33,300 nt of DNA from NCBI GenBank assembly GCA_003167275.1, contig PMTT01000268.1:9818-43117 (forward strand). The letters are read 5' to 3'. Within the stretch, counting starts at the first letter, position 1. Every line of letters begins with the position of its first letter. This DNA comes from Bryobacterales bacterium. Lineage in GTDB: Bacteria > Acidobacteriota > Terriglobia > Bryobacterales > Bryobacteraceae. A program made the position numbers and the translations under genes. Under the pieces are notes generated by a model. It did not search any database. It was given only the letters and a program-made list of their open reading frames with translations, and had not been told where the DNA came from. Shown one piece after another: positions 2,776-20,774 of the stretch.

Positions 2776-3699
2776 ATGACACCTTTTAAGAAAATCACTA
2801 AGAATCATCGGCTGGGGTTCATCGGCCTCGGGCACCTCGGGTCGCCGATGGCGCGCCGGCTGCTGTCCGCTGGGTTCCCGCTGGTGGTCTACAATCGCGA
2901 CAGTAATAAGACGAAGGCATTGTCGATTCTGGGCGCCAAGGTAGCGCGCGACCCCGGCAAACTGGCCGCCGAAGCGGATGTGGTGCTGTCCTGCCTGTCG
3001 GATGGAGCGGCCGTAGAGGCCATCTACCTGGGCGCGGGTGGCGTCCTGCGAAACGCCAGGCCCGGCACCCAGATTATCGAAATGAGTACCGTGGCTCCGG
3101 AAACCTCTCGGAAGCTCTACCGCGTTGCCCGGGAGTTCAGGCTCTCCGTGCTGGATGTGGCCGTCTCCGGCAGCGCTCCTGCCGCGGAGGCCGGGATGCT
3201 GACGCTTCTAGGCGGCGGCGATCGCCAGGACTTTGACGCTGCCGATGCAATTTTCGAAGTGATCGCGAAGCAGTGGTTCTACATGGGCCCGAGCGGCAGC
3301 GGCGTGGCCATGAAGCTGGTAGTGAACGCCCTCTTAGGTATCGGCATGCAGGCGATCGCGGAAGCTGTAACGCTGGGTGTCTCACTGGGTTTGCCGCGGG
3401 ATCTGCTGTTCGACACGCTAACCAAAACGGCTGTGGTCTCGCCCGTCCAAGCCGGCAAACTGGCCAGCGCTAAGGAGCACGACTATACGCCCCAGTTTCC
3501 GATTCGCCTGATGAAGAAGGATTTCGGATTGGCTTTGAGCGCCGCCGACCGCGCGGGCCTTTCCCTGCCTGCCACAGAAGCTGCGGCGTTTGTCAACACC
3601 GCGGAGGCCGCGAGCGGGGGCGAAGAGGATTTTTCGGCTGTAGTCCGGCGAATGGAACAAGAGACCCGAGCGGAAAACTCTCTGCCGCCGGCTGCATAG
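2776..3699 (+). CDS. NAD(P)-dependent oxidoreductase of the 3-hydroxyisobutyrate / tartronate-semialdehyde reductase (6PGDH-like) family
   Basis: GFIGLGHLGSPMARRLLSAGFPLVVYNRD N-terminal Rossmann motif; DVAVSGSAPAAEAGMLTLLGGG; KLVVNALLG; full-length 307 aa ORF. Confidence 0.88.
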   Translation: MTPFKKITKNHRLGFIGLGHLGSPMARRLLSAGFPLVVYNRDSNKTKALSILGAKVARDPGKLAAEADVVLSCLSDGAAVEAIYLGAGGVLRNARPGTQIIEMSTVAPETSRKLYRVAREFRLSVLDVAVSGSAPAAEAGMLTLLGGGDRQDFDAADAIFEVIAKQWFYMGPSGSGVAMKLVVNALLGIGMQAIAEAVTLGVSLGLPRDLLFDTLTKTAVVSPVQAGKLASAKEHDYTPQFPIRLMKKDFGLALSAADRAGLSLPATEAAAFVNTAEAASGGEEDFSAVVRRMEQETRAENSLPPAA

Positions 3700-3709
3700 G
3701 AGCAAATCA

Positions 3710-4156
3710 ATGATATCGAATCTATTTTCGACCGATCCCGATTGGAGCCTCACGGCCATCCGGGTGATTCTGGGAGTGGTCTTCTTCGCCCACGGCGCGC
3801 AGAAGATGCTGGGATGGTTCGGCGGGGCCGGCCTGAAGGAAACGCTGCGAACCATGCACGAGTTTCTCCACCTGCCGGTTCCCCTGGCTTTCCTCGCCGT
3901 GACGTCGGAGTTTCTGGGCGGCGTGGGGCTCATCGTCGGCTTATTAAGCCGCGTGGCAGCAATCGGGATATGCGTCACCATGTTGTCGGCGATCGTGATG
4001 GTACACGGCCGTTACGGTCTTTTCATGAACTGGTTTGGAGATCGCAAAGGTCACGGCATCGAGTATCACTTGTTGGCCATTGCCCTGGCGATCGCAATCG
4101 TAGTGCGGGGCTCCGGCGCAGTGTCGCTGGATCGCCTCTTATATATCTCGCAATAG
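3710..4156 (+). CDS. DoxX family membrane protein
   Basis: RVILGVVFFAHGAQKMLGWFGGAGL...; four predicted TM segments, typical DoxX N-terminus. Confidence 0.85.
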   Translation: MISNLFSTDPDWSLTAIRVILGVVFFAHGAQKMLGWFGGAGLKETLRTMHEFLHLPVPLAFLAVTSEFLGGVGLIVGLLSRVAAIGICVTMLSAIVMVHGRYGLFMNWFGDRKGHGIEYHLLAIALAIAIVVRGSGAVSLDRLLYISQ

Positions 4157-4168
4157 GAGTAATTCAAA

Positions 4169-5152
4169 ATGAACGTACGAAAACTGGGACAGAGTGACCT
4201 GAAGATCACGCCAATCGGCATCGGAGCTTGGGCCATTGGCGGCGGAAAATGGGAGTTCGCGTGGGGCGCGCAGGACGATGCAGAGTCCGTCGTCGCAATT
4301 CGCGCGGGCCTTGAGCGAGGCATCAACTGGATCGATACGGCCGCAGTCTACGGGCTTGGCCATTCGGAGGAAGTGGTCGGCCGGGCGGTCCGCGGCCTGA
4401 ACAAGCGTCCCTATGTCTTCACCAAGTGCAGCCTGGTCTGGGATGAATCCGGGACCATTTCCCACAACTTGCAAGCTGCCTCCGTCCGCAAGGAAGCCGA
4501 GGCCAGCCTGAAGCGATTGGGGCTCGATGCGATCGATCTCTATCAAATCCACTGGCCCGCTTGGAAGGGCAACCCGGAATCGGAATCGCCCGGGTCGATT
4601 GAAGAAGCTGTGGGCGAGCTGGCGAAACTCAAGGCCGAAGGCAAGATCCGGAATATCGGGGTCTCGAACTTCAATGCGCAGCAAATGGCGCGCGCCCTCA
4701 AGGTGGCGCCCATCACTTCGCTTCAGCCACCCTATTCGCTGCTGGCGACCGAGGTCGAGGACTCAACTCTGCCGTATGCGTACTATCACCACATCGGCGC
4801 AATCGTCTACTCACCCATGGCTTCCGGTCTGCTGAGCGGCGCCATGACGCGCGGGCGGATTGCGGCAATGCCCGAAGACGATTGGCGAAAACGGAGCGAA
4901 AACTTCCGGGAGCCGGCGCTGACCCGCAATTTGCATCTGGTGGAAACGCTGCGCGCCATCGGGCAACGTTACAAAGTGACGCCTGGCGCAGTAGCAATCG
5001 CCTGGACGTTGCGGAATCCGGCGGTCACCGGGGCAATCGTCGGCGTCCGCAATGCTCAACAGGTCGACGGCGTGATCGGCGCTGCCGAGATCCAGCTCAA
5101 TTCCAACGATCTATTGGAAATTGAGCAATCCATGACGTTGCAGGCGGCGTGA
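4169..5152 (+). CDS. aldo/keto reductase (cytoplasmic)
   Basis: LGQSDLKITPIGIGAWAIGG; GINWIDTAAVYGLGHSEEVVGRA; DLYQIHWP; IRNIGVSNF; PGAVAIAWTLRNPAVTGAIVGVRN. Confidence 0.93.
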   Translation: MNVRKLGQSDLKITPIGIGAWAIGGGKWEFAWGAQDDAESVVAIRAGLERGINWIDTAAVYGLGHSEEVVGRAVRGLNKRPYVFTKCSLVWDESGTISHNLQAASVRKEAEASLKRLGLDAIDLYQIHWPAWKGNPESESPGSIEEAVGELAKLKAEGKIRNIGVSNFNAQQMARALKVAPITSLQPPYSLLATEVEDSTLPYAYYHHIGAIVYSPMASGLLSGAMTRGRIAAMPEDDWRKRSENFREPALTRNLHLVETLRAIGQRYKVTPGAVAIAWTLRNPAVTGAIVGVRNAQQVDGVIGAAEIQLNSNDLLEIEQSMTLQAA

Positions 5153-5205
5153 CCCGAGGTGGGACAAACGATCGTTTTGTGTCGTCTGTCATTCTCGCGA
5201 GCCAA

Positions 5206-5233
5206 GACAGACCACAAGACCCGATGGTCTGTC
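5206..5233. promoter_or_regulatory. 9-bp perfect inverted repeat (GACAGACCA-10 nt-TGGTCTGTC) between the aldo/keto reductase and fdh genes; terminator or operator candidate
   Basis: Direct reading of the sequence; arms 5206-5214 and 5225-5233. No poly-T tract follows. Confidence 0.4.
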
Positions 5234-5348
5234 CCGCTCGGTGTCGATCCAGTGTCGATTGGTCGATACCCTGGGCCGCGGTGTGTGTAGCAAAGCGGCC
5301 TAAAATGCTTTGGGCTGTCGATTGCTTAGGGAGGCGCAGGCTTGAGCT

Positions 5349-8300
5349 ATGATTACGATCTCCATTGACGGGACTTCCCATGAAGTGGCACCGGGCGATC
5401 GCTTAATCGACGCGATCAATCGCGCCGGCGTCCCACTGTCGCAGGTCTGCTACCTCCCGATATTGGGGCCGATTCAGACCTGCGACACCTGCATCGTGGA
5501 GGTGGATGGCAAGCTGGTTCGCGCCTGCGCGACGGAGCTGTCTGCCGGCATGAAAATCTCCACTACGGCCAGCAGCGCACACGCCGCTCGCACCGAGGCA
5601 TTCGACCGCATTCTCCGCAATCACGAGCTCTACTGTACCGTCTGCGACAACAACAACGGCAACTGCACGGTCCACAACACCACCAAACAGCTCGCGATTG
5701 AACACCAGCATTACCCGTTTCAGCCCAAGCCTTACGAGGTCGACAACAGCAATCCGTTCTACCGCTACGATCCTAATCAGTGCATTCTGTGCGGCCGGTG
5801 CGTGCAGGCCTGCCAGGATCTTCAGGTCAACGAGACGCTATCGATCCGCTGGGAAGATCCGCATCCCCGCGTCCTCTGGGATGGCGGCGCGCCGATCGGC
5901 GAGTCGAGCTGCGTGTCCTGCGGCCACTGCGTGACGGTTTGCCCGTGCAACGCCCTCATGGAAAAAACCATGATCGGACACGCCGGCTTCCTGACGGGCT
6001 TCAGCAAACCAGTCTTGGGCAGCATGATCGACGTGGTGAAGGGACTCGAAGCGGAAACCGGCTACACCACGATCCTCGGTGTTTCCGAAGCGGAATCCGC
6101 TATGCGGACTACCCGCGTCCGGCGTACAAAAACGGTCTGCACTTATTGCGGCGTAGGATGCAGCTTCGATGTATGGACCAAGGAGCGCCATATTCTCAAA
6201 GTGGAGCCGGCCGAGGGCCCCGCCAATGCCGTCTCCACGTGCGTCAAGGGCAAATTCGCCTGGGATTTCGTCACCAACAAGGACCGCCTCACCAAACCGC
6301 TGATCCGCGAGGGTGACCGCTTCCGGGAAGCCACGTGGGATGAGGCTCTGGACCTGGTCGCCCACCGTTTCGGCGAGATCAAGGCCTCGCACGGTCCTGA
6401 CGCGTTGGCCTTCATCGCCTCGTCGAAATGCACCAACGAAGAAGCCTTCCTGATGCAGAAGCTGGCCCGCGCCGTGGTCGGGACCAACAACGTCGATAAT
6501 TGCTCGCGATATTGCCAGTCGCCGGCTACCATGGGGTTGTTCCGCACAGTCGGGTACGGTGGCGACTCCGGCTCCATCCACGATATCGAGCAGGCCGGTC
6601 TGGTGCTCATCGTCGGCAGTAACACCGCCGAGAGCCATCCTGTGCTCGCCACGCGTGTGAAGCGCGCTCACAAGCTGCATGGACAGAAGCTCATCGTCTC
6701 TGACTTACGGGAAAACGAAATGGCGCACCGCGCCGATCTCTACTTCCGGCCGACCCCGAGCACCGACATCGTGTGGCTGTGCGCGGTGGCCCGGTACATT
6801 CTGGACGAGGGCTTGGCCGATTCCGATTTCCTGAGCCGCTGGGTCAACGGCCTGGCGGAGTATCGCCAGAGTCTGGAGCCGTTCACTCTGGAATTCGCTT
6901 CCAAGACCTGCAATCTGCCGGTCGAAACGCTGAAACGCGTGGCCCACATGATTGCCGAAGCGAAGGGTGTCTGCGTCCTGTGGGCGATGGGGATCACGCA
7001 GCATAGCAACGGCTCCGATTCCTCCACGGCGATTTCGAATCTGTTGCTCGTCACCGGTAACTACATGCGGGCGGGCACCGGCGCCTACCCGTTACGCGGG
7101 CACAACAACGTCCAGGGGGCCAGCGATCACGGGGCGATGCCCAACATGGTATCGGGTTATCAATCGGTGGATAATCCCGAGGTTCGTACGCGCTTCCGGA
7201 GCGGTTGGGGCGTTGACCTGCCTGCCTCCAAGGGTCTGGACAATCACGAAATGGTGGACGCCATTCAAGCCGGCAAGCTGCGGTCGATGTATCTCTGCGG
7301 CGAGGAAATGAGCCTCGTCGACTCCAACGCCAACTACGTGAGCGAAGCGTTCCGGAAACTCGACTTCTTCGTGGTCCAGGATATCTTCTTTAGCGCCACC
7401 TGCCAGTACGCCGACGTCGTGTTGCCCGCCAGCCCCAGCCTGGAGAAGGAAGGCACCTTCACCAGCACAGAGCGGCGCGTGCAGAGGCTCTACCAGGTAT
7501 TCGAACCCCTGCCGGGAAGCCGGCCCGATTGGGTGATCATTCAGGATGTCGCCAACCGCCTGGGGGCAGGCTGGAAATATCGCCATCCTTCGGAAGTGAT
7601 GGATGAGGTGGCCGCGCTTACGCCCATGTTTGCCGGCGTCAATTACGAGAGGCTCGAAGGCTATAAGTCGCTGCAATGGCCGGTGGCCGCGGACGGAAGC
7701 GATCAGCCGCTCCTCTATACGAAGAACTTCGCGTTCCCGGACGGGAAGGCACGCTTGTATCCGCTAGCATGGCGCGAACCGCAGGAATGCAGAGATTCCG
7801 AGTTCGACCTTCATTTAAACAATGGCCGCCTGCTGGAACATTTTCACGAGGGTAATCTGACCTACCGTAGTCCCGGCATCCATGAAAAGACTCCCGACAC
7901 TTTCGTCGAGGTCTCCCCAGAGCTGGCACGCTCGCGCGGTATCGACAGCGGCAGCCTGGTGCAGCTTATTTCGAGGCACGGCCGCGTGCGGGTGCGCGCA
8001 CTGGTCACCGACCGGGTACAGGACGGCGAGCTCTACATGCCGATGAATTCCACCACCAGCCCCGTCAATCTGCTCACCGGCAGCCACACCGACCCTGCGA
8101 CGCACACTCCGGCATACAAGGAGACTGCAGTCCGCATGGAGGTTCTCGCACGGGTCGGCGAGAGTCCGTTGCCTCGCATCAATCATCGCTTCGGCCATCC
8201 AACTCCGCAGAGCGGCGTGGAGGTAGAGAGAAAATGGCGGCAGCCTGGTTATCGCTTCCCGGGCGAGCTGGTGCAGATCGAGACGAAGCGGGAGGGATAG
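5349..8300 (+). CDS. formate dehydrogenase alpha subunit (YrhE/YjgC-type, N-terminal 2Fe-2S and 4Fe-4S domains, Cys at the Mo ligand position)
   Basis: N-terminal 2Fe-2S plus CILCGRCVQACQ / CVSCGHCVTVCPCNAL ferredoxin motifs; CTYCGVGC 4Fe-4S site; NCSRYCQSPATMGLFRTVGYGGDSG active-site region; MGITQHSNG; C-terminal molydopterin dinucleotide-binding domain. Confidence 0.95.
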   Translation: MITISIDGTSHEVAPGDRLIDAINRAGVPLSQVCYLPILGPIQTCDTCIVEVDGKLVRACATELSAGMKISTTASSAHAARTEAFDRILRNHELYCTVCDNNNGNCTVHNTTKQLAIEHQHYPFQPKPYEVDNSNPFYRYDPNQCILCGRCVQACQDLQVNETLSIRWEDPHPRVLWDGGAPIGESSCVSCGHCVTVCPCNALMEKTMIGHAGFLTGFSKPVLGSMIDVVKGLEAETGYTTILGVSEAESAMRTTRVRRTKTVCTYCGVGCSFDVWTKERHILKVEPAEGPANAVSTCVKGKFAWDFVTNKDRLTKPLIREGDRFREATWDEALDLVAHRFGEIKASHGPDALAFIASSKCTNEEAFLMQKLARAVVGTNNVDNCSRYCQSPATMGLFRTVGYGGDSGSIHDIEQAGLVLIVGSNTAESHPVLATRVKRAHKLHGQKLIVSDLRENEMAHRADLYFRPTPSTDIVWLCAVARYILDEGLADSDFLSRWVNGLAEYRQSLEPFTLEFASKTCNLPVETLKRVAHMIAEAKGVCVLWAMGITQHSNGSDSSTAISNLLLVTGNYMRAGTGAYPLRGHNNVQGASDHGAMPNMVSGYQSVDNPEVRTRFRSGWGVDLPASKGLDNHEMVDAIQAGKLRSMYLCGEEMSLVDSNANYVSEAFRKLDFFVVQDIFFSATCQYADVVLPASPSLEKEGTFTSTERRVQRLYQVFEPLPGSRPDWVIIQDVANRLGAGWKYRHPSEVMDEVAALTPMFAGVNYERLEGYKSLQWPVAADGSDQPLLYTKNFAFPDGKARLYPLAWREPQECRDSEFDLHLNNGRLLEHFHEGNLTYRSPGIHEKTPDTFVEVSPELARSRGIDSGSLVQLISRHGRVRVRALVTDRVQDGELYMPMNSTTSPVNLLTGSHTDPATHTPAYKETAVRMEVLARVGESPLPRINHRFGHPTPQSGVEVERKWRQPGYRFPGELVQIETKREG

Positions 8301-8306
8301 AGTCCC

Positions 8307-8750
8307 ATGGCACAACCGATTCCATTGACGATTACGGCCAAGGGCCCAGACCCCGCGGAACGCCTGGAAGATGCGCTCGACAAGCATACCGATGCTATTG
8401 TCTCCGCGCTGGAACTTCTGCAGCTTTTGCACGACCGCGGTGTCCTGGACCTGTTGCGCGGATTGGTTGGCGCTGGGGATCAGTTAGTCGGCATCTTAAC
8501 GGCAGCGGCAGGCACTCCGGAATCCCTGCGCGGGGTGCGCAATTTCATTTTGTTGACGAAATTCTTTGCCAGCATCCCGCCGGACGTGTTGAACAGCCTG
8601 GTTCGCGCCGCCTCGGAAGGAGCCGAGCGCGAGAAGGCACAACGCGCGCCCGGAGTGCTGCAACTGCTGCGGCGGGCAGGCAGCGAGAACAGCCGCCATG
8701 CGATCGCGGTCACACTCGATCTGCTGGAAAGCGTCGGGAAGGCACTGTGA
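8307..8750 (+). CDS. DUF1641 domain protein (YrhD-like), formate dehydrogenase partner
   Basis: 147 aa ORF directly downstream of fdh; LLHDRGVLDLLRGLVGAGDQLV...; same gene order as Bacillus yrhE-yrhD. Confidence 0.75.
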   Translation: MAQPIPLTITAKGPDPAERLEDALDKHTDAIVSALELLQLLHDRGVLDLLRGLVGAGDQLVGILTAAAGTPESLRGVRNFILLTKFFASIPPDVLNSLVRAASEGAEREKAQRAPGVLQLLRRAGSENSRHAIAVTLDLLESVGKAL

Positions 8751-9195
8751 ACGTCGCGGTGGTCCCGGTACCGATCGGCCGGGTGGAAGGTTGCACTGCA
8801 TCGCATGCCGACGACCTGCTGGCAGTCGAGGAGGCGCTGGAAATTCGACTGGGAGGTCGCAGCCTCACCATCACCATGCGAACTCCCGGGAACGACTTCG
8901 AACTGGCGGCGGGCTTCCTGCATTCGGAAGGAATGCTCCAGGATATTTCCCAGATTCGGCGGATGGGTCGCCCAAGCGACGGTAGCATGGATGTCGTAGT
9001 GGTGGAGTTGGACGGAGAACCGCGCGCACCCGTGCAGGCACAGCGTAACTTTGTGATGACGTCCGCGTGCGGTGTCTGCGGGAAGGCTTCCTTGCAGGAT
9101 CTGGAAGCGAATACCTGCCCCATTCTGCCCCCGGACGACATCCAGCTCTCGCCGGAAATCATCCATGGGCTGCCGGATTCACTCCGCAGCGCCGG
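8747..9195 (+). pseudogene. fdhD: FdhD sulfurtransferase, 3' third missing (frame runs on to a stop at 9251-9253)
   Basis: GTG start overlapping the DUF1641 stop; VEEALEIRLGGRSLTITMRTPGNDFELAAGFLHSEGML...; NFVMTSACGVCGKASL (conserved CGxCG); homology stops at LPDSLRSA and the TGGLHAA / REDVGRHNAVDK part is absent. Confidence 0.85.
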
Positions 9196-9443
9196 GCCGC
9201 TCGCTTATCTATCTTCTGGAGGGCTCGCCAAACGCGGAAACGATGTCCGCTAACTTTGATGGACGGGCAATCCGGGTGACGATCCCGATGGAACAGATGA
9301 CCGACTGGGTGGAGAGCGACCGAGTTGGCGTCGAGGCCCGGTCGCAAACCGGCGGGCAGATTCTAGTCGAAAAGGACTTCCAGTGCCTGCATCGGCCTGT
9401 CGAACAGGAACCCGACGCCTATCCTCATCCACTTATGACCTGA
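9190..9443 (+). pseudogene. C-terminal fragment of a small DUF7009-like protein, fused out of frame to fdhD
   Basis: In the second frame: APGRSLIYLLEGSPNAETMSANFDGRAIRVTIPMEQMTDWVESDRVGVEARSQTGGQILVEKDFQCLHRPVEQEPDAYPHP; recalled family signature (VEKDFxCLxx...DAFPNP). Confidence 0.55.
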
Positions 9444-10689
9444 CCGGCGGAACAGCGCCCACGCCTTGGAAGCTGAAATCACGCGACTGCCGCTCGCGGG
9501 GAGGCCGCAGGAGCAGCGGGACTACCGCGCTCACGAGCGTTGCCAGGGCGAGCCAACTCATCGCGCCCTGATAATGGCCAGTGGCCTGGCGAATTCCCGC
9601 CACCAGACTCGGACCAAATACCGCGGCGCACCCCCAGGCCGTGAGCATCAGGCCGTAGATCGACCCGATTTGCGCCGCCCCAAAGTAGTCGGTGGCGAAT
9701 GCCGGCATGGTGCCGAAGCCACCGCCGTAGCAAAGCAAGATGAGAAACGCCAACAACGAGAGCAGGGCGAACTGATGAACCTGCGAGAGCAGTAGAAATG
9801 CCGCGGACTGAAGCAGGAACATCATCAGAAACACCGTCCGCCGGCCTACCGCATCCGAGAACCAGGCCCACAGAAAACGTCCCGAGCCGTTGGCGATCGA
9901 GATGAGCCCGACCATGCCTGCGGCCGTCGCAGCCGATACGCCCGAGATCTCCTGCGCCATGGGAGACGCCTGCGAAATGATCGCGATTCCCGCCGTCGTG
10001 TTCAGGAACAAGGTAAGCCACAGCGCGTACCATTGCCACGTTCCGAGCGCCTGCCGGAGTGTGAAATCCTGCGAGGCCGATCGGCCGGGGTGCGAGGCAG
10101 TGGCAAGGTATCCCGCGGGCGCATAGCCGTCGGGTGGATTCCGCATGAATAGCGCACACCCAAAGACGACGACCAAATACGCCAGACCCAGAACTTCGAA
10201 GGTGCGCCCGACTCCGACCGAAGCCATCAGCGAATTCGCCGCCGGAGCAGTTACCAGCGCGCCCGCTCCGAAGCCTGCGACGGCGAGACCAGTGATCATG
10301 CCGCGCTTATCGGGAAACCATTTCACCAACGTGGCGATCGGCACGATGTACCCCAAGCCAAGCCCCGCGCCGCCGATCAGGCCGTAGGTCAAGTACAAGT
10401 TACTCAAGCTGTGCGCCGAACCCGCCAGCATTGTGCCCAGTCCGTAGAGGACCGCGGCAGCAAGCGCCACCGACCGCGGGCCGCTTCGTTTCATCCACAA
10501 CCCGCCGGCAAACGCCGCGAAGCCAACGACGAAGATAGCGATCTCAAACGCATCCGTGACTTCGGCAATAGTCCAGCCGTGAGCATGCGACAACGGAATG
10601 CGGAATACGCTCCACGCGTACACGGCGCCAAAGGCGATCTGCATCAGCACGCCCGCGGCCGCGATGAGCCAACGCTTTTGTGTGTTCAT
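9433..10689 (-). CDS. MFS transporter, OFA (oxalate/formate antiporter) family
   Basis: RWLIAAAGVLMQIAFGAVYAWSVFRIPL; YGLIGGAGLGLGYIVPIATLVKWFPDKRGMITGLAVAGFGAGAL; 418 aa, 12 TM pattern. Confidence 0.92.
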   Translation of the reverse strand: MNTQKRWLIAAAGVLMQIAFGAVYAWSVFRIPLSHAHGWTIAEVTDAFEIAIFVVGFAAFAGGLWMKRSGPRSVALAAAVLYGLGTMLAGSAHSLSNLYLTYGLIGGAGLGLGYIVPIATLVKWFPDKRGMITGLAVAGFGAGALVTAPAANSLMASVGVGRTFEVLGLAYLVVVFGCALFMRNPPDGYAPAGYLATASHPGRSASQDFTLRQALGTWQWYALWLTLFLNTTAGIAIISQASPMAQEISGVSAATAAGMVGLISIANGSGRFLWAWFSDAVGRRTVFLMMFLLQSAAFLLLSQVHQFALLSLLAFLILLCYGGGFGTMPAFATDYFGAAQIGSIYGLMLTAWGCAAVFGPSLVAGIRQATGHYQGAMSWLALATLVSAVVPLLLRPPRERQSRDFSFQGVGAVPPVRS

Positions 10690-10701
10690 AATAAGTCTCC
10701 T

Positions 10702-12144
10702 CTATTTTCCGGTCGGCGTATAGCCGTCCGTCAATGTCTTCAGGAAAGCGACAATCTGATCTTCTTGTTGGCTGGTAAGTCCAAGGTTGCCCAGTTGCCT
10801 TCGATTCATGGTCTCGGGATGTTCGGGCGCCGGCCAACAAGTCACCTTCTCCCCGGGGGCGCCGGCCTGGCAGCGCGGCAAGACGTCGCGAGTGTTATAG
10901 AAGTGCACCACTTCCTTGAGCGATTTCAGATAACCGTTGTGCATGTAGGCCTTGACGAAATCCGGGCGCGGCCGCTTATCGACATTTCGCACCGTGGGTG
11001 TCTTATGTTTGCCTATGAAGGATTTCGCCCTCGGCGTCCACTCCCCATTCGGATTCGCCGGGCCTTCGAGAAATCCGCCCACGCCGGCATCGAGAAAGCT
11101 GGCGCCGGCCGGGTTGGCCGTAAATCCGGAGCCGTCAGGCTGGTTCTCTTGGTAATACGGCATCCCATGGTTCGGCGGCAGGCCCAGGTTCGAAGCCGTG
11201 AAATCGGTAAACAACGGCTCCTCGCCCGGACCTCCGTCGCGATGACATTCGTTGCAGTGCGTCGCGCCGCTGCGGAACAACTGGTAACCGGCGTCTTCGT
11301 ACGGAGTGAACTTCGCCTTGCCGGCCATGACGTAGTCGTACTTCGAGGAAAACGAATTCACTTCACTGGATCCTTCATACGCCGCGATGGCTTCGGCGAT
11401 CTTGTCGTACGTAGATTGCGCGATGCCTCGGTCCACCGGCGTTAGATGCACGGGCAGTGGATCCGCCTTCGGCGCTGGGCCTGGCCGATCGCAAGTCTCT
11501 TTAATGTCCGCCGGCCATCGCATGGCGAACGCTTGGGCGCCCCACAGGTGCTCCGCCATGGACCGATACGGCCTTCCGGATGCTCGATATACCACGCAGG
11601 CCGCGTCGATGAGCGCCATCTCATTCGGATCGAGAGGCGGCCCTTGCGCCTGCTCCGCGAGCGGACTATTGAGCCGCATACCGGTTGCGCGCATGTCCCA
11701 GAAGGCTCCGCCAACCAAGTCGCCCTGGAGCGCATTGTAGTGTAGCACCGGCGAGAAGCTGGCGTACCCATGGGTCTGAGGTACGCGCCCGTTGAAGCGA
11801 GAACGCACCGATCCCGGATAGGCGGCGGTAGTCCGATTGAGTTCGCTCACTGGTCCGGCGAATCCCGCTTCGGGCATATGACAGAAGGCGCAAGCTTCGT
11901 TCCTCCCGACAGACAACTGCCGGTCGTAAAAGAGCAGCTTGCCGAGCAGAATCACTTGCTGCGATGCGTCGAGGGTTTCATGCTGCACTCTCGTCTGGGT
12001 CTCGTCCTCAGTCCGATTAATTTCTTTCTCAACCGACTCAATCTCTTTCTGAGCAGCGGACCACTCGAGGGGTTCCGAACGAAGCGCCAGCATGACGCCG
12101 ATCGCGGCGATTGCTCCGGCAGTATACAGTGCTGTTGGTCGCAT
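10702..12144 (-). CDS. di-heme cytochrome c peroxidase / MauG family protein
   Basis: Two CxxCH heme sites (CAFCH, CNECH), LGKLLFYDRQLSVGRNEACAFCHMPEAGFAGP, KHKTPTVRNVDKRPRPDFVKAYMHNGYLKSLKEVVHFYNTRD. Confidence 0.9.
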   Translation of the reverse strand: MRPTALYTAGAIAAIGVMLALRSEPLEWSAAQKEIESVEKEINRTEDETQTRVQHETLDASQQVILLGKLLFYDRQLSVGRNEACAFCHMPEAGFAGPVSELNRTTAAYPGSVRSRFNGRVPQTHGYASFSPVLHYNALQGDLVGGAFWDMRATGMRLNSPLAEQAQGPPLDPNEMALIDAACVVYRASGRPYRSMAEHLWGAQAFAMRWPADIKETCDRPGPAPKADPLPVHLTPVDRGIAQSTYDKIAEAIAAYEGSSEVNSFSSKYDYVMAGKAKFTPYEDAGYQLFRSGATHCNECHRDGGPGEEPLFTDFTASNLGLPPNHGMPYYQENQPDGSGFTANPAGASFLDAGVGGFLEGPANPNGEWTPRAKSFIGKHKTPTVRNVDKRPRPDFVKAYMHNGYLKSLKEVVHFYNTRDVLPRCQAGAPGEKVTCWPAPEHPETMNRRQLGNLGLTSQQEDQIVAFLKTLTDGYTPTGK

Positions 12145-12244: not shown

Positions 12245-12256
12245 CATGACGTCATG
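12245..12256. promoter_or_regulatory. 12-bp perfect palindrome CATGACGTCATG in the intergenic region upstream of the cytochrome c peroxidase
   Basis: Direct reading; self-complementary. Confidence 0.35.
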
Positions 12257-12285
12257 ACGACGCCGCCTGACGAAGGGACGTGCTC

Positions 12286-13290
12286 TCAGCCTAACCATTG
12301 GGGATTCTGGTATGTGCCATCGAACGTATGAGTTGTCTTGTACTGCTCATACTTGCCGGCTTGCGCGGCCTGCGCGGTCTTCGCCAGAAGGGCTTCGACT
12401 TCGGCGCGCTGCATGGGCCGGAAACTCCCTGCGGCGCCCACCGCCTGGTCGAGGATCCGCATCGAGTCGCAGCCCGTAATCACCACGCTCGTTGGTAAGT
12501 TCATAGCGTAGTGTAGGCATTCGACCGGGGAGGCAGTCTTGCTATCAAGTATGATGTGGTCGCCCATCGGCTTCATCCCCAACACGCCAATATCGCTCTT
12601 CACCAACACAGGTAGGACGTTCTTTTCGAAGCTGTCGTAGTGCGCGTCCATTACGTTCAACGGCATCTGCACGGTGTCGAATCGGAACTGATGACTGTCC
12701 GCGGTCGCCAGCATCTTCAAATGCACAGCGGGACTCTTGTGGCCCGTAAAGCCGATATAGCGGATCTTCCCAGCCTTCCTGGCGGCAAGCGCCGCTTCCA
12801 TGCCGCCGCCGGCCGCGAAAATGCGGCCCGGATCGTCCATGCGGATGACTTCGTGAAACTGCAGGAGATCGATATGACCGGTCTCGAGCTGGCGCAGCGA
12901 TTCTTCGATCTGCTGCGTGGCGGTTTTCTTGTCCCTGCCGTCGATTTTGGTCATCAGGAACGCGCGTTGGCGATAGCCGTCGCGCAGTGCCTTGCCCATG
13001 CGAAGCTCGCTCTGCCCGCCGTTGTAGGCCCAGCAGTTGTCGAGGAAGTTAACTCCTTGATCGATGGCCGCGCGCACGATGCGAATACTCTCCGCCTCTT
13101 CGAGGTCTGGACGGACAAGATGGTATCCGCCCAGCCCTATCATCGAGACCATTTCCTCTGTGTGGCCGAGTCTACGGCGGGGAACTTCTCCCATGGATTC
13201 CGCTCCTTTCGCGAACCGGGAGGCGCCGGCGAGCACCGAAGCGCCAGTAACTACTTCCAGGAATCGTCTTCTCATTGCGTCGAACGTCAT
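12286..13290 (-). CDS. aldo/keto reductase with twin-arginine signal
   Basis: MTFDAMRRRFLEVVTGASVLAGASRFAKGAES signal; RRLGHTEEMVSMIGLGGYHL; GVNFLDNCWAYNGGQSELRMGKAL; HIDLLQFHEV; IRYIGFTGH. Confidence 0.9.
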   Translation of the reverse strand: MTFDAMRRRFLEVVTGASVLAGASRFAKGAESMGEVPRRRLGHTEEMVSMIGLGGYHLVRPDLEEAESIRIVRAAIDQGVNFLDNCWAYNGGQSELRMGKALRDGYRQRAFLMTKIDGRDKKTATQQIEESLRQLETGHIDLLQFHEVIRMDDPGRIFAAGGGMEAALAARKAGKIRYIGFTGHKSPAVHLKMLATADSHQFRFDTVQMPLNVMDAHYDSFEKNVLPVLVKSDIGVLGMKPMGDHIILDSKTASPVECLHYAMNLPTSVVITGCDSMRILDQAVGAAGSFRPMQRAEVEALLAKTAQAAQAGKYEQYKTTHTFDGTYQNPQWLG

Positions 13291-13309
13291 ATCGCTCTTC
13301 CGAGCACTA

Positions 13310-13708
13310 CTAGGAACCCGCCGACTTTGCCGCTACTTGTTGCGCCCTCAAGACCTCGCCCAGCAGAAACACGTCCGTGAGCAGCGCGCGCAAATGAACC
13401 GAAGCATTCAGGTTGTCGATCAATTGCGAGCTGATCGCAGGTTGCGCCAGCACGAGTTCCATGGCCGACAACGAGTCGCTGGCGTCGCGCTCCAACACGG
13501 CCAGAAATGACGGCCGGCCGTCTCCCATCTCCTCCGCACAGCGGTCCGGCAGCCCGATGAGGGCATTGACTGCGCGATTCAGGAACTCCCTGATCTTTCT
13601 GCCAGACTCGCTGCCCTTGTCGCTCGCGAGACCCTGCGCCGCATACGCCAGCATGAACTCGTAGCATTCCTCGATAACCTCAAAGCGCTCCAGGATTTCT
13701 GCGGCCAT
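13310..13708 (-). CDS. hypothetical protein, 132 aa, alpha-helical
   Basis: Intact ORF packed between the cytochrome b and aldo/keto reductase genes, same strand; MAAEILERFEVIEECYEFMLAYAAQGLAS... Confidence 0.65.
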   Translation of the reverse strand: MAAEILERFEVIEECYEFMLAYAAQGLASDKGSESGRKIREFLNRAVNALIGLPDRCAEEMGDGRPSFLAVLERDASDSLSAMELVLAQPAISSQLIDNLNASVHLRALLTDVFLLGEVLRAQQVAAKSAGS

Positions 13709-13711
13709 AAA

Positions 13712-14575
13712 TCATATCTCCCTGTCCGTCCGGCTCGATCCTGACGGCGGTATTTCCACCGCCCAGCGCTGCGGGTCGTAGTGCTTCAGATAAAACTCTC
13801 GCCTCATCGTGCCAAAAACCATCGACTTTGTGATGTCCAGTTTTTCCGGCCGAATCGCGAAGTACACGTGCACCATCACCAGCGCGATGAGTCCGATGCC
13901 GGCCAGTCCGTGGAGCACATACATCAGGCCCCACGTCATATCGCTGAACAGATACGGATTGCGAGGGAAGAAGATGGTGCGGACCCGGGACATCATAAAC
14001 ACCCCGGTGCCGATCGCCGATAAGCCAGTCGCGATAATCGCGCCGTGATACAGCTTGTTCTCTAACGGATACTTTGCAAACTTCCGCGGCGGCGGCACAG
14101 GGCGGCCCATGAATCGCTGGACTCTTCTCCACGCATCCACCACGTCGGCCCTGTCCGGCCAGATCGCCCAGAAGTCCAGCCAGAATGAGGCATGAATTAC
14201 GTGAAAGATAATCGATACCGTCAGCACGGTGCCGGCGATCCAATGATAAGTCACCCAATTGAACTGCACACCGAGCTTGGGCATAAATGCCGTGATGAGC
14301 AGGGTGAGCATCGCCGCGGCCATAATCCAGTGAAACGATCGCGCCGCCAGCGAATGTCTGGGAATTCGAGCGGGCAGTTCAGCCGCGGGCACCGGAGCAT
14401 CGCTGCCGGCGAATTCCTCTGCGCGGGCGAAATATCGTACATAAGTGGCGTGCACCATGAGGAATAGCAGGCCCGCGATCCCGGCCACCCAAATCAGGAA
14501 CCACGCCACGTGGATGGGAACGCTCTGCCCCCAGGGACTCGTCGCTAATTCTGTAATCCGCTTCAGGATGTCCAT
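13712..14575 (-). CDS. cytochrome b561/formate dehydrogenase gamma-type membrane protein
   Basis: IPRHSLAARSFHWIMAAAMLTLLITAF; TYHWIAGTVLTVSIIFHVIHASF; YVLHGLAGIGLIALVMVHVYFAIRPEKLDITKSMVFGTMRREFYLKHYDPQRW. Confidence 0.85.
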   Translation of the reverse strand: MDILKRITELATSPWGQSVPIHVAWFLIWVAGIAGLLFLMVHATYVRYFARAEEFAGSDAPVPAAELPARIPRHSLAARSFHWIMAAAMLTLLITAFMPKLGVQFNWVTYHWIAGTVLTVSIIFHVIHASFWLDFWAIWPDRADVVDAWRRVQRFMGRPVPPPRKFAKYPLENKLYHGAIIATGLSAIGTGVFMMSRVRTIFFPRNPYLFSDMTWGLMYVLHGLAGIGLIALVMVHVYFAIRPEKLDITKSMVFGTMRREFYLKHYDPQRWAVEIPPSGSSRTDREI

Positions 14576-15579
14576 TTTGCTTCCTCCACTCCCCCAATTG
14601 CCCGCTTCACGAGGTTCCTCATCAAGGGGATCTTATAGGCGTTGAACTGTAACGGGACGGCTCCCTGCACGGCTAGTTTCCCGGCCATTTCGCCCGTTGC
14701 CGGCGTCGCTGTTTTTCCGCGTACGGCGTCTTCCACCGCCTTCAATCGCAGAGGACGCGCGGCGGCGCCGTTCACGGCAAGACGGATGCCCTCGATGGTG
14801 TCGCCGGAAACGTGCATCGCCGAGGCCACGTTCATCAAAGGAAAGTCCCACACGTTCCGGTCTCGCACTTTTTCGAAATAGAATCGCGCGCCCGCCCACG
14901 TGGACGGGATGCGAATGGCGGTCAGCAGGTCGCCAGGCTTCAGAATGTGGAGGCGCGTGATGTCGATGTCAGGCCCAATGAAATAGTCTTCGGCGTCGAC
15001 GATTCGTTCTCCCTTGGACGTTTGAATCACAAATTTGGCATCCAGGGCAATCAACGCCGGAGCCGAATCGGAGGGGTTCACCGCTACGCATCGCTCCGCG
15101 TGAAGGATGGCGTGCTCGCGGTTCCGGCCGGTGGGCGTATCGGCATAACAGATATTTCCGCCCGCACGGTAGCACGGCCAGCCGGAGCGGTAATACCAGC
15201 AGCGCGTGTCCTGCGACACGTTGCCGCCGATGGTGCCCTGGTTTCGGATCTGCGGTGAAGCGATCAATTCGGCGGCCTCTGCCAACAGACCGTAGTGCTC
15301 CCTGATGACCGGGTGCTTCACGATCTCGGTAAGGGTGGTCAGCGCGCCGATCTCGATGCCGCCGTCTGTCGTGCGAATGCCCCTGAGTTCCGCGACACCG
15401 CTGAGGTCAACCAGCACTTTCGGCCGCTTGATGCGGTCCTTGAGCCAGTCGAAGCTATCGAGCCCGCCGGCCATAATCCAGGCGTCCTCTCCATGCTGTT
15501 GGAGAAGATGCTGTGCATCAGCGGCGGAAGTCGGTTGAAGCAGGTCGAACGCGGGCATGACGTCTCGTATTACCGACAT
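14563..15579 (-). CDS. molybdenum hydroxylase FAD-binding subunit (CoxM/XDH medium subunit family)
   Basis: MPAFDLLQPTSAADAQHLL...; IMAGGLDSFDWLKDRIKRPKVLVDLS; AELIASPQIRNQGTIGGNVSQDTRCWYYR. Confidence 0.92.
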   Translation of the reverse strand: MSVIRDVMPAFDLLQPTSAADAQHLLQQHGEDAWIMAGGLDSFDWLKDRIKRPKVLVDLSGVAELRGIRTTDGGIEIGALTTLTEIVKHPVIREHYGLLAEAAELIASPQIRNQGTIGGNVSQDTRCWYYRSGWPCYRAGGNICYADTPTGRNREHAILHAERCVAVNPSDSAPALIALDAKFVIQTSKGERIVDAEDYFIGPDIDITRLHILKPGDLLTAIRIPSTWAGARFYFEKVRDRNVWDFPLMNVASAMHVSGDTIEGIRLAVNGAAARPLRLKAVEDAVRGKTATPATGEMAGKLAVQGAVPLQFNAYKIPLMRNLVKRAIGGVEEAKWTS

Positions 15580-15593
15580 AAGTCCTCTCGCAT

Positions 15594-18086
15594 TTAAATG
15601 TGCGCCATCAGGGGATGTTGCACCGGGCGCCCAGCTTCCAACGAAGTCAAAATCGTGTCGGCGTTAACCGGCGCGCGCCGAAAGATCTCGTCGCCCAGGG
15701 CGTCCGAGAGCGCGTTTAAGATAGAGGCGCACCCGCCTCCCACAGGGGGTTCGCCGATACCGCGGGCGCCCACCGGAGTCTCAGGGTCGGGAGTATCCAA
15801 CGCTTCCCATTGCATGTTCACCGGTACATCGAGAATCGTCGGTGGCTTATTATGGTGGAACCGTTTGGCGACCATCACTCCGTAATGCGGGTCGAAAACC
15901 CACTTCTGGCCGATGGCGTGGCCGATGCCGAGGATCGAGCGCCCCAGTACCTGCCCGCCGAGTGCGCGCGGATGGATCACCGTGCCCACGTCGGCGTACG
16001 CCAGGAAGTCCACGACGTAATACTTGCCGGTCTCGACGTCCACTTCGATTTCGGCGAAGCTTGCCACGTAGGAATGTGTCATGCCGTCGCGCGGGTAATT
16101 GTCCTTCGCGGCCGCTACCAATCCCTGTCCGGCCAGCGACGCTATGGACGCCTTGGTCACCTTGTTGACATCGGCCGGCGCTTCATGGCCATCGTATTTG
16201 CCGCCGAGTTCGATCGCGCGCCGGGCTGCCTGCGCCAGAGTCATACCGGCGGAGCCCTTGCGAAAGACTCGCTCGTTCGCGACCGTGTAGTCCTCCGGTG
16301 CGCCCCCCAGGCCCTTTGCGGCGATCTCCTGCAGTTTCTGCCGGGCATCCATCGCCACGGCGTGAGCGGCTCGCGTCATTGCGTGCGTGGTCTGGCTGCC
16401 GCCGGACACGCACGTGAACGGAAGATGCTTCGACGTGTCGCCCCACACCACGTCGCATTTCTCCCACGCGACGCCGAGTACTTCTGCGGCCGCACGGTGG
16501 ACGTCGATCACCGACTCCGTTCCCAGGTTTCCGATTCCGGACTGGAATCGCACCCTGCCTTCCGGCGTGATGACGAGAAGTCCGTCAAAGCCGACGGTGC
16601 CGCCAACGTAGCAACTCAGCGCCACACCGACGCCGCGGACCTTGGATCCGATTCGTTTGGGACTCCGCGCAGCCCTGCCCTGCCAGTTGAATCTCTCCGC
16701 GCCGCGTTGCAGCGCGTCCTTGAGAAATGCGCTGGTGGCGTGCTGCATTTGGCCCTGTACCAGCGGCCCGTATTGCGCTTTGCCTTCGGGGCAGTTGATG
16801 TAACGGATCGCCACCTGGTCCAGCCCTAGCTTTCGAGCGGCCTTGGCGATGATCGGCTCAATGATCGAAATGCCTTGCAGCCCACCAGGCGAGCTCTGCG
16901 CGCTGCGCGGCGGCGTGTTCGTCAGCACGGTCACCCCGCGCCAACGCATGGCCTGCGGCTGGTACAACAGCGAGACCATACGTCCCGACGTTGGGGAGTC
17001 GCCCTGCGCGTCGTAAGGCCCGTTGTCCGAAATCACGAACATGTCGAGCGCGAGGATACGTCCTTCTTTGGAAAAGCCCACCTTCATGCGCCCCTGAAAG
17101 CCGGGCCGGGCGCGTCCGATGAAGGTCTCCTCCTCGCGGCTGATCCGCATCATCACGGGGGCATTGGCCTTCTTCGACAGCAGCGCAGGAATAATCATGG
17201 TGACGCCGCCGGTGATCTTGCTGCCGAATCCGCCGCCCGTGTATTCGCTGATGAAGACGACCTTCTCCGCGTCCATATTCAGCCACCGTGCGATCGCGGG
17301 CCGGGTTTGCGCGGTGCTCTGGGTCCCGCTGTGAATGTAAACTTTGCCATTTTGCCAATACGCCATGGCACTGCGTGTTTCAAGGGTCTGATGGCTCACG
17401 TCTGGCGTGACAAAAGTCTCGTCCAGCACCAGGGCGGCACTCTTGAAACCTGCGTCGAGGTCGCCATACGACCATTCGTCAGGCGTCTTGCCCATCGGCA
17501 GTCGGCCGGATTTCGTTTCGGCGAAGTCGGCCTCGGTCCACTTCAGTTCCTTCACTGCGGGCCCAGTAGCGCCTGGCGGCGTCGTCCAGATGTTGCCGTC
17601 CGTTCTAGGGTTCGGGCCGCCGGGGCGCAGCGTATCGAGGGGATCGACCACGAACGGAAGCGGTTCGAAATCGATCTGGATTCGTTCGATCGCCTCGGCC
17701 GCAGTCAATTCGTCCACGGCTGCCACCGCGAGAATCGGCTCACCCTGGTAAACCGGCTCAATCGTGAGCCCTCGCTCGCCCCACTTGCTCGCCTTAATCA
17801 CCGTGCCGTTGTCGGTGAGTGTGTCGGCCGGCGCCGGAAGATCGTCCGCCGTAAGGATCGCCTTCACACCGGGCATCGCCAACGCTTCGCGGGCATCGAT
17901 ATGCCTCACCCGGGCATGCGGCAGCGGACTGAGCAACAGCTTGCAGAACAGCATGCCTTCGGCACGAAAATCTTCCGCGTATTTTGACCTGCCTGTGACC
18001 TTGGCTAAGAGATCGGTCGTCACGTAGTTCTTGCCGATCAGCTTGTATTGAGGCCCGTATACACGCTCGTTGGTAGCTTCAGGCAT
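15594..18086 (-). CDS. xanthine dehydrogenase-family molybdopterin-binding subunit (CoxL/XDH large subunit family)
   Basis: KVTGRSKYAEDFRAEGMLFCKLLLSPLPHARVRHID; GGGFGSKITGG; PVGARGIGEPPVGGGCASILNALSDALG; 830 aa. Confidence 0.95.
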   Translation of the reverse strand: MPEATNERVYGPQYKLIGKNYVTTDLLAKVTGRSKYAEDFRAEGMLFCKLLLSPLPHARVRHIDAREALAMPGVKAILTADDLPAPADTLTDNGTVIKASKWGERGLTIEPVYQGEPILAVAAVDELTAAEAIERIQIDFEPLPFVVDPLDTLRPGGPNPRTDGNIWTTPPGATGPAVKELKWTEADFAETKSGRLPMGKTPDEWSYGDLDAGFKSAALVLDETFVTPDVSHQTLETRSAMAYWQNGKVYIHSGTQSTAQTRPAIARWLNMDAEKVVFISEYTGGGFGSKITGGVTMIIPALLSKKANAPVMMRISREEETFIGRARPGFQGRMKVGFSKEGRILALDMFVISDNGPYDAQGDSPTSGRMVSLLYQPQAMRWRGVTVLTNTPPRSAQSSPGGLQGISIIEPIIAKAARKLGLDQVAIRYINCPEGKAQYGPLVQGQMQHATSAFLKDALQRGAERFNWQGRAARSPKRIGSKVRGVGVALSCYVGGTVGFDGLLVITPEGRVRFQSGIGNLGTESVIDVHRAAAEVLGVAWEKCDVVWGDTSKHLPFTCVSGGSQTTHAMTRAAHAVAMDARQKLQEIAAKGLGGAPEDYTVANERVFRKGSAGMTLAQAARRAIELGGKYDGHEAPADVNKVTKASIASLAGQGLVAAAKDNYPRDGMTHSYVASFAEIEVDVETGKYYVVDFLAYADVGTVIHPRALGGQVLGRSILGIGHAIGQKWVFDPHYGVMVAKRFHHNKPPTILDVPVNMQWEALDTPDPETPVGARGIGEPPVGGGCASILNALSDALGDEIFRRAPVNADTILTSLEAGRPVQHPLMAHI

Positions 18087-18717
18087 GGTTTACGCTCCTC
18101 ATATTCTCCGCGCCGCGCATCATCGCGGTGAGGATCTTGTCGTAGTCCTGACATCGGCATAGGTTCCCGGAAATACCGTGCGCCAACTCCAACCTGGTGG
18201 GGTTCGCGTTTGTCTTGAGGAATCCCACCGTGGCCATGATGAATCCGGACATACAAAACGCGCATTGGAATCCCTGCTCGTCGATTACGCCCTGCTGAAC
18301 GGGATGCAGGGTTCCGTCCTGGCTTGCGAGGCCTTCGATCGTCACGACGTTCCGACCCCGCACCGTGTGTGTGAGCACCGAGCAGGAGTAATGCGGCACG
18401 TCATCGATCAACACCGTGCAGGCCCCGCATTCGGCTCGGTCGCAACCCAACTTTGTTCCGGTTAGTCCCAACTTGTAGCGCAGGGTCCACGCCAGCGTTT
18501 CTTGCCTCATTACATCGGCCCGGCGAACTTGCCCGTTGACGTTCAAGCTAATCAGCCGCTCACCGGATCCGCCGATGCCGTGGACGGTGGAGCCGCGAAA
18601 CAGGTAGCTGGCTGAGCCAACGGCCGCGCCCGCGCCGATGACGCCTTGGATGAATCTGCGCCTGGAAACTGCTTTTGGTGTGTTTCCGAGAATCTTCAGA
18701 TGTGAATCATCAGACAT
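18079..18717 (-). CDS. 2Fe-2S subunit of molybdenum hydroxylase (CoxS-like) with Tat signal
   Basis: Probable start at 18717 (MSDDSHLKILGNTPKAVSRRRFIQGVIGAGAAVGSASYLFRG); CDRAECGACTVLIDDVPHYSCSVL; GISGNLCRCQDYDKIL. The longer ORF in the track (to 18939) overlaps the cupin gene. Confidence 0.93.
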   Translation of the reverse strand: MSDDSHLKILGNTPKAVSRRRFIQGVIGAGAAVGSASYLFRGSTVHGIGGSGERLISLNVNGQVRRADVMRQETLAWTLRYKLGLTGTKLGCDRAECGACTVLIDDVPHYSCSVLTHTVRGRNVVTIEGLASQDGTLHPVQQGVIDEQGFQCAFCMSGFIMATVGFLKTNANPTRLELAHGISGNLCRCQDYDKILTAMMRGAENMRSVNHA

Positions 18718-19192
18718 GTAAAGAATCCTCCAGGGGACGGGTCGGACGGTAGTTCTTCCCGTTCGTCTGTCCGCCAGACCAATATTCATCCGACAAATTG
18801 ACGACGATAGGTTGTGGAGTGCTCCTGACCACCACCCAGGTAAATTCCGTATCCTGCGAGAGGTTGATCTCCTTGTGAGGGAGATACGCGGGGACGTATA
18901 CGAAATCGCCCGGTTGAGCCGTCGCCGAGAATTCCCCATGGCGCCCCCAGCGGATCAGGCATGTGCCAGCCAACACGTAGACGACGGTGTCCTGCTTCCC
19001 GTGATGATGAATCGCCGTCTGCCCTCCGGCCGCGACGGTGAACAATCCTCCCCACATCGCCGATGGAGTCCCGTGCTCGCGGGTGATCGCGGCAACCCTG
19101 TGCGAACCGGGCGTTTGCGCGGTATCTTCACTGAATGTATCGGGCCGCACAACGCCGATCGCGTTTCCGTTCTGAAAAATCTTAACTGTCAT
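18710..19192 (-). CDS. cupin domain protein
   Basis: TVAAGGQTAIHHHGKQDTVVYVLAGTCLIRWG...AQPGDFVYVPAYLPHKEIN; overlaps the next gene's start by 8 bp. Confidence 0.85.
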   Translation of the reverse strand: MTVKIFQNGNAIGVVRPDTFSEDTAQTPGSHRVAAITREHGTPSAMWGGLFTVAAGGQTAIHHHGKQDTVVYVLAGTCLIRWGRHGEFSATAQPGDFVYVPAYLPHKEINLSQDTEFTWVVVRSTPQPIVVNLSDEYWSGGQTNGKNYRPTRPLEDSLHV

Positions 19193-19481
19193 CTCTCACC
19201 TCGGGATTGCAAGCGGAGCGCCAGCCATAAGTTGCTGTGCCTCCAGCCGGTTCAGACAATTTCTGTCCATTAGTGGTCGTCTCCTGTCGGCGGGCCGACG
19301 TCCCGCAGACTGAGACTGGTGCCGCCCGCCTCTCTTGGCAGCGGTCTGTTGCGGTGGAGCGGTTCGCAGGCGCCTTAATCCCCGAATACCGCGCCCAACC
19401 GGGCATGACGGCGTCGCTCTTTTGCCGCCGGCGCGGAAGGCCAGGTTCCGCATTCCGCGCCAGAAATCAAAACACTCCGAT

Positions 19482-20774
19482 CTATAGGGGCGTAACCACC
19501 GCTTCCTGTTTGGGAATGCTATCGAGCATAGACGTCGTCACTCCGAGATGCTGATTCATCAGCAGGTGCGGCGTATGCGCCATCCACTCCGCAAGCGAGA
19601 TGTCCTGGTATTCACTGGTCCTGAACATCTCGATAAACACCAGGTCGGAGTCGCCGGTGTTCTCGATGTAATGCGGGTTGGAAATCGGCACGTATCCCAC
19701 ATCCCCCTCTTCGAAATCCATGGTGCGCGCCGTCGTCGCCCCAACGAAAACACTCATGCGCCCCTTTCCGGTGATGTAGTATTGCCACTCGTCCGCGTTG
19801 GGATGCCAGTGCAATTCACGCAGCGCCCCCGGCTTGAGAGTGACGATGGCGGCGGAAATCGGGGTCACTGGAAAAGTCTTTGAATCGATGATTTTCACTT
19901 CTCCGCCGCGCGTCACCTTGGTGGGCTTCATCGCGCTGGCCTTGAAGTCGAAACGCTTGGGCACGGTCCCGGTTCCCTTCGCCGCCTCAGTCTGTTCCGC
20001 GTGCAGGTCGCCCGGGAGATCTGCTTGAAAGATGAACAGCTCCTTCTTGGGAACCGCGTCGAAGGTCGATTCGGATACGCTGAAATTCTTCGCAAGGACT
20101 TCCCTGGGAGTATGCGCGAGCCAATCGGTAATCAGGAATGTGTGGAACTCGTCGAAGTTTCCGTCGTCGAATACCAGCAGAAAGCGGCAGCCATCCGGAC
20201 CCAGCCCCTGGATGGAGTGTGGAACTCCGGGTGGGAACAGCCACAGGTCTCCTTCGCCCACGTCGCTCACAAAGCTCTTGCCGTCGTGGTCCACGGCGGT
20301 GATCCGCGCGCTGCCATTCAGCATGATGGCCCATTCAGCTTCCACGTGCCAGTGGAGTTCGCGGATTCCGCCCGCCGTGAGCCGCATTTCCACGCCCGCG
20401 AGGGTTGTCGAAATCGGCAATTCGCGCACTGTAACCTGGCGTGTCCAGCCGCCGCTCAGCACGCGCTTACGGGCCAGGGCGAAGGGATACTTGAACGGTT
20501 TTACGGTACCGCTATCGGTCGGCGGAGGCCACTCCGAATCCGGATTCTCCGCTGCCAGAGGGCGATTCTGCGGCCCGCGATTGCTCTCGTTCGGCGCCGC
20601 GTGGCTAGCTTGCTGCTGCGCCTCCGCCGTTTTCTCAACGGCCATAGTCAGCGTCGCGGCTGCGACAGCCGCGGAGCCTAGGCCAAAAATGTCTCGCCTA
20701 CTTATCTTCTTCTCGTCCTTTTCAATGTCAGACACGGTATCTCCTCTCAATTGAAGCGACCTGCCTTCTAACAT
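19482..20774 (-). CDS. bicupin oxalate decarboxylase family protein, Tat signal (a GTG start VSDIEKDEKK is also possible)
   Basis: SRRDIFGLGSAAVAAATLTM Tat signal; cupin 1 GIRELHWHVEAEWAIMLNG; cupin 2 ALRELHWHPNADEWQYYITGKGRMSVF; DWLAHTPREVLAKNF. Confidence 0.9.
   Translation of the reverse strand: MLEGRSLQLRGDTVSDIEKDEKKISRRDIFGLGSAAVAAATLTMAVEKTAEAQQQASHAAPNESNRGPQNRPLAAENPDSEWPPPTDSGTVKPFKYPFALARKRVLSGGWTRQVTVRELPISTTLAGVEMRLTAGGIRELHWHVEAEWAIMLNGSARITAVDHDGKSFVSDVGEGDLWLFPPGVPHSIQGLGPDGCRFLLVFDDGNFDEFHTFLITDWLAHTPREVLAKNFSVSESTFDAVPKKELFIFQADLPGDLHAEQTEAAKGTGTVPKRFDFKASAMKPTKVTRGGEVKIIDSKTFPVTPISAAIVTLKPGALRELHWHPNADEWQYYITGKGRMSVFVGATTARTMDFEEGDVGYVPISNPHYIENTGDSDLVFIEMFRTSEYQDISLAEWMAHTPHLLMNQHLGVTTSMLDSIPKQEAVVTPL

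Follow-up and report, generated by a model that had tools for sequence, protein, structure and literature searches.

Do the putative oxalate decarboxylase, formate dehydrogenase and exported molybdenum (Mo) hydroxylase encoded in two converging gene blocks at positions 2776-20774 of the window (the whole 33,300-nucleotide stretch analyzed here) serve one pathway, as an initial annotation of this DNA proposed, or do they belong to separate systems? Oxalate is abundant in soils. The window lies on contig C276 of an 11.5 Mb genome (G000) of a peat-soil acidobacterium, and oxalate use by Acidobacteria is treated only as a possibility in the literature that we found (PMC10192776). Profile scans (Pfam, TIGR and NCBIfam) recovered both blocks with the families named for them. 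Based on sequence throughout, we estimate a probability of roughly 75% that two functional modules are interleaved at one address, an oxalate/formate set (module A) and a separate Mo cassette (module B). The cassette sits between oxdC and a carrier gene only in this lineage, that is, in the window and in one relative, G031, whose genome alone repeats the order of both blocks (77-96% identity, there on two contigs). As the modules share an address only here, the proposal of a single oxalate pathway was only half right.

Oxalate and formate genes

The minus-strand block includes a Tat (twin-arginine translocation)-exported bicupin of the OxdC type (19482..20774), which scored 524 bits against a cutoff of 254 with TIGR03404. 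When aligned with Bacillus subtilis OxdC, it was found to have the HxH, Glu and His metal ligands intact in both cupins and to retain the lid glutamate (Glu162; FDEFHT vs. FSENST), with Glu at this position in every lid variant listed among the OxdC orthologs. Loss of Glu162 abolishes decarboxylase activity, and the residue marks decarboxylases as opposed to oxidases (PMC6850040). By family match and catalytic residues the bicupin is thus a probable oxalate decarboxylase, its substrate being assigned from family membership. Upstream of oxdC is an alginate-export-type porin gene (20806..21906, minus strand, PF13372), which belongs to the oxalate module: a porin adjoins oxdC in G035, G118, G328, G222, G234, G324 and G188. 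The genes in the extent initially drawn, 2776-20774, are real, but it stops short of the porin, whose 5′ part lies in another frame because of a frameshift near 21.91 kb; in G031 the porin is a single continuous frame.

On the plus strand, the ForC-type formate dehydrogenase catalytic subunit (5349..8300; TIGR01591, 817 bits vs. a cutoff of 666) has a fused NuoG-like N-terminal Fe-S part (PF13510/PF10588/PF04879) and a Cys-Gln active site (NCSRYCQSP). Its B. subtilis counterpart ForCE reduces menaquinone (PMC8808070). The next gene (8307..8750) encodes a ForE/DUF1641-like partner subunit, a label given for gene position, since the gene follows ForC directly in nearly all relatives while the DUF1641 model has no match in the window protein and reaches only 15 bits (cutoff 21) in the G031 ortholog; the earlier DUF1641 assignment is supported by position and lacks direct Pfam support. 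The fdhD gene that follows was also named earlier. It is present, but as an N-terminal remnant (8747..9253, plus strand) covering profile positions 1-124 of 237: relative to G031, a 483-bp deletion has removed the C-terminal half of FdhD together with the part of the following small gene (9254-9443) that encodes its N-terminal half, and the remnant is the sole FdhD match in the genome, with no second copy.

The minus-strand carrier of the major facilitator superfamily (MFS; 9433..10689) had been taken for an oxalate/formate transporter of the OFA family. It passes the SfMCT-type L-lactate carrier model (NF049980, 425 bits vs. a cutoff of 320) and fails both antiporter models (TIGR04259, 183 vs. 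335; TIGR00890, 223 vs. 375), and we rejected the OxlT/OFA antiporter assignment in favor of a monocarboxylate transporter that is a candidate formate importer. Carriers of the window type (54-58% identity) adjoin ForCE, with FdhD, in G330, G298 and G267, and adjoin OxdC in G259; relatives beside ForCE or OxdC likewise pass NF049980. In G324 and G035 the MFS gene adjoining OxdC is less closely related (36%).

Across the 299 genomes of the class that we surveyed for co-occurrence, OxdC was found in 63 and ForC in 47, and the two are shared by 22 genomes where 9.9 are expected (Fisher p=2e-5, kinship ignored). Physical linkage is more telling than these counts. ForE, ForC, FdhD, porin, OxdC and MFS genes lie inside 9.3 kb in G324, and ForE, ForC, FdhD, porin and OxdC lie together in G188, both without the Mo cassette, while G035, of the window's own family, carries porin-OxdC-MFS on contig C68 and the Mo cassette on a separate contig, C44. 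Parts of the module (porin, OxdC, MFS, ForCE and FdhD) are found grouped, with no Mo enzyme among them, in distantly related Acidobacteriota (G188, G324, G035 and G330). G188 also has a second, divergent Tat-signal OxdC (L209, 17803-19116) beside a TSUP-type permease gene.

The simplest working model for module A is periplasmic decarboxylation, formate import and oxidation by ForCE. Oxalate would pass the outer membrane via the porin and be decarboxylated in the periplasm by Tat-exported OxdC, giving CO2 and formate. Formate would enter the cytoplasm as a monocarboxylate through the SfMCT-type carrier, and there ForCE, after maturation by FdhD, would oxidize it to CO2 and hand the electrons to menaquinone. 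If this is true, the recurring porin-OxdC-carrier-ForCE set would decarboxylate oxalate on the periplasmic side of the inner membrane, a route for which no oxalate/formate antiporter is needed.

Molybdenum hydroxylase cassette

The five minus-strand genes of module B encode a three-subunit Mo hydroxylase, a membrane cytochrome and a small protein. The subunit with two [2Fe-2S] clusters (S; 18079..18717, PF01799/PF00111) carries a Tat signal (SRRRFI); its true start is near 18717 rather than 18939, and it overlaps the end of a small cupin gene. The Mo subunit (L; 15594..18086, PF02738/PF20256/PF01315) has an active-site loop with the signature AQS[SAQ]PGG, common variants among the orthologs reading [AS]QS[SAQ]PGG, and a catalytic GEPP motif, and its nearest named full-length relative is from a Candidatus Solibacter metagenome-assembled genome (89%). 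The FAD subunit (M; 14563..15579, PF00941/PF03450) has a four-Cys loop resembling that of PaoB and of aldehyde oxidase, its best Protein Data Bank (PDB) match being the aldehyde oxidase chain 5y6q_B. Among orthologs, S conserves the Tat motif and the 2Fe-2S cysteine motifs, M the four-Cys loop, and L the catalytic GEP. The cytochrome is of the b561/FdhI type (13712..14575, PF01292), with heme-ligand-type histidines conserved across orthologs and no PDB relative at E 0.01.

The fifth gene encodes u132 (13310..13708), a conserved 132-residue protein of a new family. An alignment of 53 rows contains 19 invariant columns, the open reading frame is present in 55 of the 80 cassette loci examined, and u132 adjoins the cytochrome in 25 of the 26 genomes carrying it. 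It has no Pfam or NCBIfam family, no significant PDB match and no apparent signal peptide; its AlphaFold2 model is a confident helical bundle (predicted local distance difference test score 92.9), for which the top PDB match, a FliS-type export chaperone, was not significant (E ~0.1). A NarJ/TorD-type chaperone was rejected, as no Pfam or NCBIfam model matched and no TorD-like fold was among the PDB matches listed, and weak matches to HepT and helix-turn-helix models, scattered over a few members, were taken as chance. We tentatively regard u132 as a cytoplasmic maturation or export helper, at slightly less than even odds; in any case, it adds a protein family without a name.

We found L in 40 and u132 in 26 of 396 genomes of the phylum Acidobacteriota. 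For neighborhood comparison, the best 80 of 460 candidate loci were taken, and in these loci of the closest L relatives the order S-L-M-cytochrome b-u132 is retained. The cassette stands without oxalate genes in dozens of these loci, 24 of which span 22 kb or more; an oxdC gene was seen in only one of the 80 (L039, identical to contig C326 of G031). How far such absence of linkage can be followed is set by contig ends, which cut many of the loci, and the metagenome-assembled genomes are partly contaminated (10% for G031). Genome co-occurrence in the class survey was near expectation both for L with OxdC (6 vs. 4.0 expected, p=0.25) and for L with ForC (2 vs. 3.0, p=0.75). On a tree of L built by a quick method, the L of the window branches from within the cassette sequences, with L021 and L057 as its neighbors; neither of these has oxalate genes in the stretches examined, and the linkage of oxalate genes to the cassette therefore looks derived. 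Two or three close L paralogs per genome occur in G571 and G068, in near-tandem arrangement in G571 (C44:101817-108249).

A Tat signal is present on S only, L and M starting without one. PaoABC of Escherichia coli is exported as a trimer on the PaoA signal (PMC4273604), and the same is likely for S-L-M: the three subunits would assemble in the cytoplasm and be exported together on the S signal, with u132 most likely acting as a maturation or export chaperone. The exported enzyme would then oxidize its substrate, most likely an aldehyde or an N-heterocycle, and electrons would run through the 2Fe-2S, 4Fe-4S and FAD centers to cytochrome b561, the obvious candidate acceptor, and on to the quinone pool. 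The terminal electron acceptor of PaoABC was left open in PMC3958847, and the cassette gives a handle on that question for PaoABC-type enzymes. We found no paper on a periplasmic Mo hydroxylase with a cytochrome b561. Whether S-L-M-cytochrome b561-u132 represents an undescribed class, widespread in Acidobacteriota, of exported, quinone-linked Mo hydroxylases with an Arg-less AQSxPGG loop and a helper of a new family (in effect a Pao-type enzyme with its acceptor written into the operon) we judge to be evenly balanced.

L fails the equivalog models for PaoC (247 vs. 1180 bits) and XdhA (333 vs. 780 bits), and no xanthine dehydrogenase model reaches its cutoff. The loop lacks the Arg found at the same place in PaoC, 5y6q and 4-hydroxybenzoyl-CoA reductase, so that a substrate cannot be transferred from any of these three. 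A more specific version of module B would make the cassette an exported nucleobase or N-heterocycle hydroxylase resembling xanthine dehydrogenase, with the oxalate locus a chance neighbor. L scores equally high with the XdhA and 4-hydroxybenzoyl-CoA reductase models, and downstream of the cassette in L048, L049, L053, L074 and L080 we noted genes for IscU-like, MocA-like and XdhC proteins and then for PreT, PreA and dihydropyrimidinase (named from sequence without a family scan, and not every gene in every locus). These XdhC and reductive-pyrimidine neighbors keep an N-heterocycle in play as substrate, but they are confined to one part of the L tree, and together with the missing Arg and the sub-cutoff xanthine dehydrogenase scores this makes the specific version unlikely, if the best-placed of the alternatives that we considered.

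Alternative explanations

For module A, OxdC could instead be an acid-resistance enzyme that consumes protons, with formate dehydrogenase merely disposing of the formate and no catabolic pathway for growth. B. subtilis OxdC is described as a low-pH stress enzyme (PMC8254039), and formate dehydrogenase and carrier genes are missing near many of the class's OxdC homologs; Tat export, however, would put proton consumption outside the cytoplasm, and the linkage of OxdC in several genomes to porin, carrier and ForCE genes suggests that the electrons of oxalate are used. We consider acid resistance a somewhat poorer prospect than the N-heterocycle hydroxylase.

Least probable is the pathway closest to the initial annotation, in which periplasmic oxidation of glyoxylate, or of another C2 aldehyde, by the exported Mo hydroxylase yields the oxalate that OxdC splits, the formate is oxidized and the electrons of both oxidations reach the quinone pool: same-strand packing from cupin to carrier, full synteny in G031 and an FAD subunit closest to an aldehyde oxidase agree with it, but the cassette is without oxalate genes in all other loci examined, does not share a contig with OxdC in G035 and shows no genome co-occurrence with OxdC or ForC, and no family model indicates glyoxylate, so we ruled it out as the main explanation on the neighborhood and co-occurrence comparisons. 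What stands of the single oxalate locus is the oxalate-to-formate-to-CO2 part, for which the OxdC residues, the recurrent linkage and the co-conservation of OxdC with formate dehydrogenase in relatives all speak; the Mo hydroxylase is not co-conserved with them, and its membership is not supported.

Three points weigh against two interleaved but separate modules, both of them working. In the window and G031, the genes from the small cupin to the Tat-signal aldo/keto reductase run in one direction, spaced by -13 to 19 bp; so tightly packed, they may be one transcript and may now serve one physiology. Phylogeny accounts for part of the association between OxdC and ForC, with ForC concentrated in family f11. 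Finally, the fdhD deletion and the porin frameshift may be real decay of module A or may be assembly errors; unless they are the latter, the formate step may be inactive in this genome.

Other genes in the window

The remaining genes named earlier were all present. A GarR/3-hydroxyisobutyrate-dehydrogenase-like reductase (2776..3699, plus strand, PF03446/PF14833) is loosely linked to the formate module, a 67% relative adjoining ForC in G330 (L214). Found at the same position in G031 only are a DoxX family membrane protein (3710..4156, plus strand, PF07681), an aldo/keto reductase (4169..5152, plus strand, PF00248) and a di-heme cytochrome c peroxidase/MauG-like protein (10702..12144, minus strand, PF03150). 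The Tat-signal aldo/keto reductase (12286..13290, minus strand, PF00248) is near the Mo cassette in G031, L040 and L057 only, and the small cupin protein (18710..19192, minus strand, PF07883) occurs only in the window and G031.

Beyond the two blocks, a SIR2-like domain reading frame followed by an nSTAND NTPase reading frame (30337-31694), resembling pieces of SIR2/STAND anti-phage defense genes, is beside a transposase with DUF4372 and DDE domains that is apparently split in two reading frames (31807-32762). Promoter and terminator scans gave matches no more frequent than chance expectation, and Rfam and tRNA scans found nothing.

Comparison with known systems

Among characterized enzymes, B. 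subtilis OxdC (YvrK, the type of TIGR03404) shares both cupin metal sites and the proton-donor lid Glu with the window bicupin, and matches it at ~400 bits over nearly the whole mature length; the window protein differs in its Tat signal, in the lid sequence DEFHT for SENST and in its linkage to a porin, an MCT-type carrier and ForCE. B. subtilis ForCE likewise has a catalytic subunit (FdhA) with a fused NuoG-like Fe-S part and Cys-Gln in place of Cys-His. Encoded alongside it is a small DUF1641-type partner, to which the adjacent gene product in the window may correspond, although this has diverged too far to be matched by the DUF1641 model; the Acidobacteriota ForCE differs also in being linked to oxalate genes in some genomes. 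The oxalate/formate antiporter OxlT (TIGR04259) is a related MFS carrier, but the window carrier falls far under its model cutoff and passes the SfMCT lactate-carrier model instead. For the cassette, the closest parallel is E. coli PaoABC, also with three subunits, a Tat signal only on the 2Fe-2S subunit and a four-Cys loop in the FAD subunit; here the Arg-containing AMRAPG of PaoC is replaced by AQSSPGG, and the operon, without PaoD, adds a dedicated cytochrome b561 and u132.

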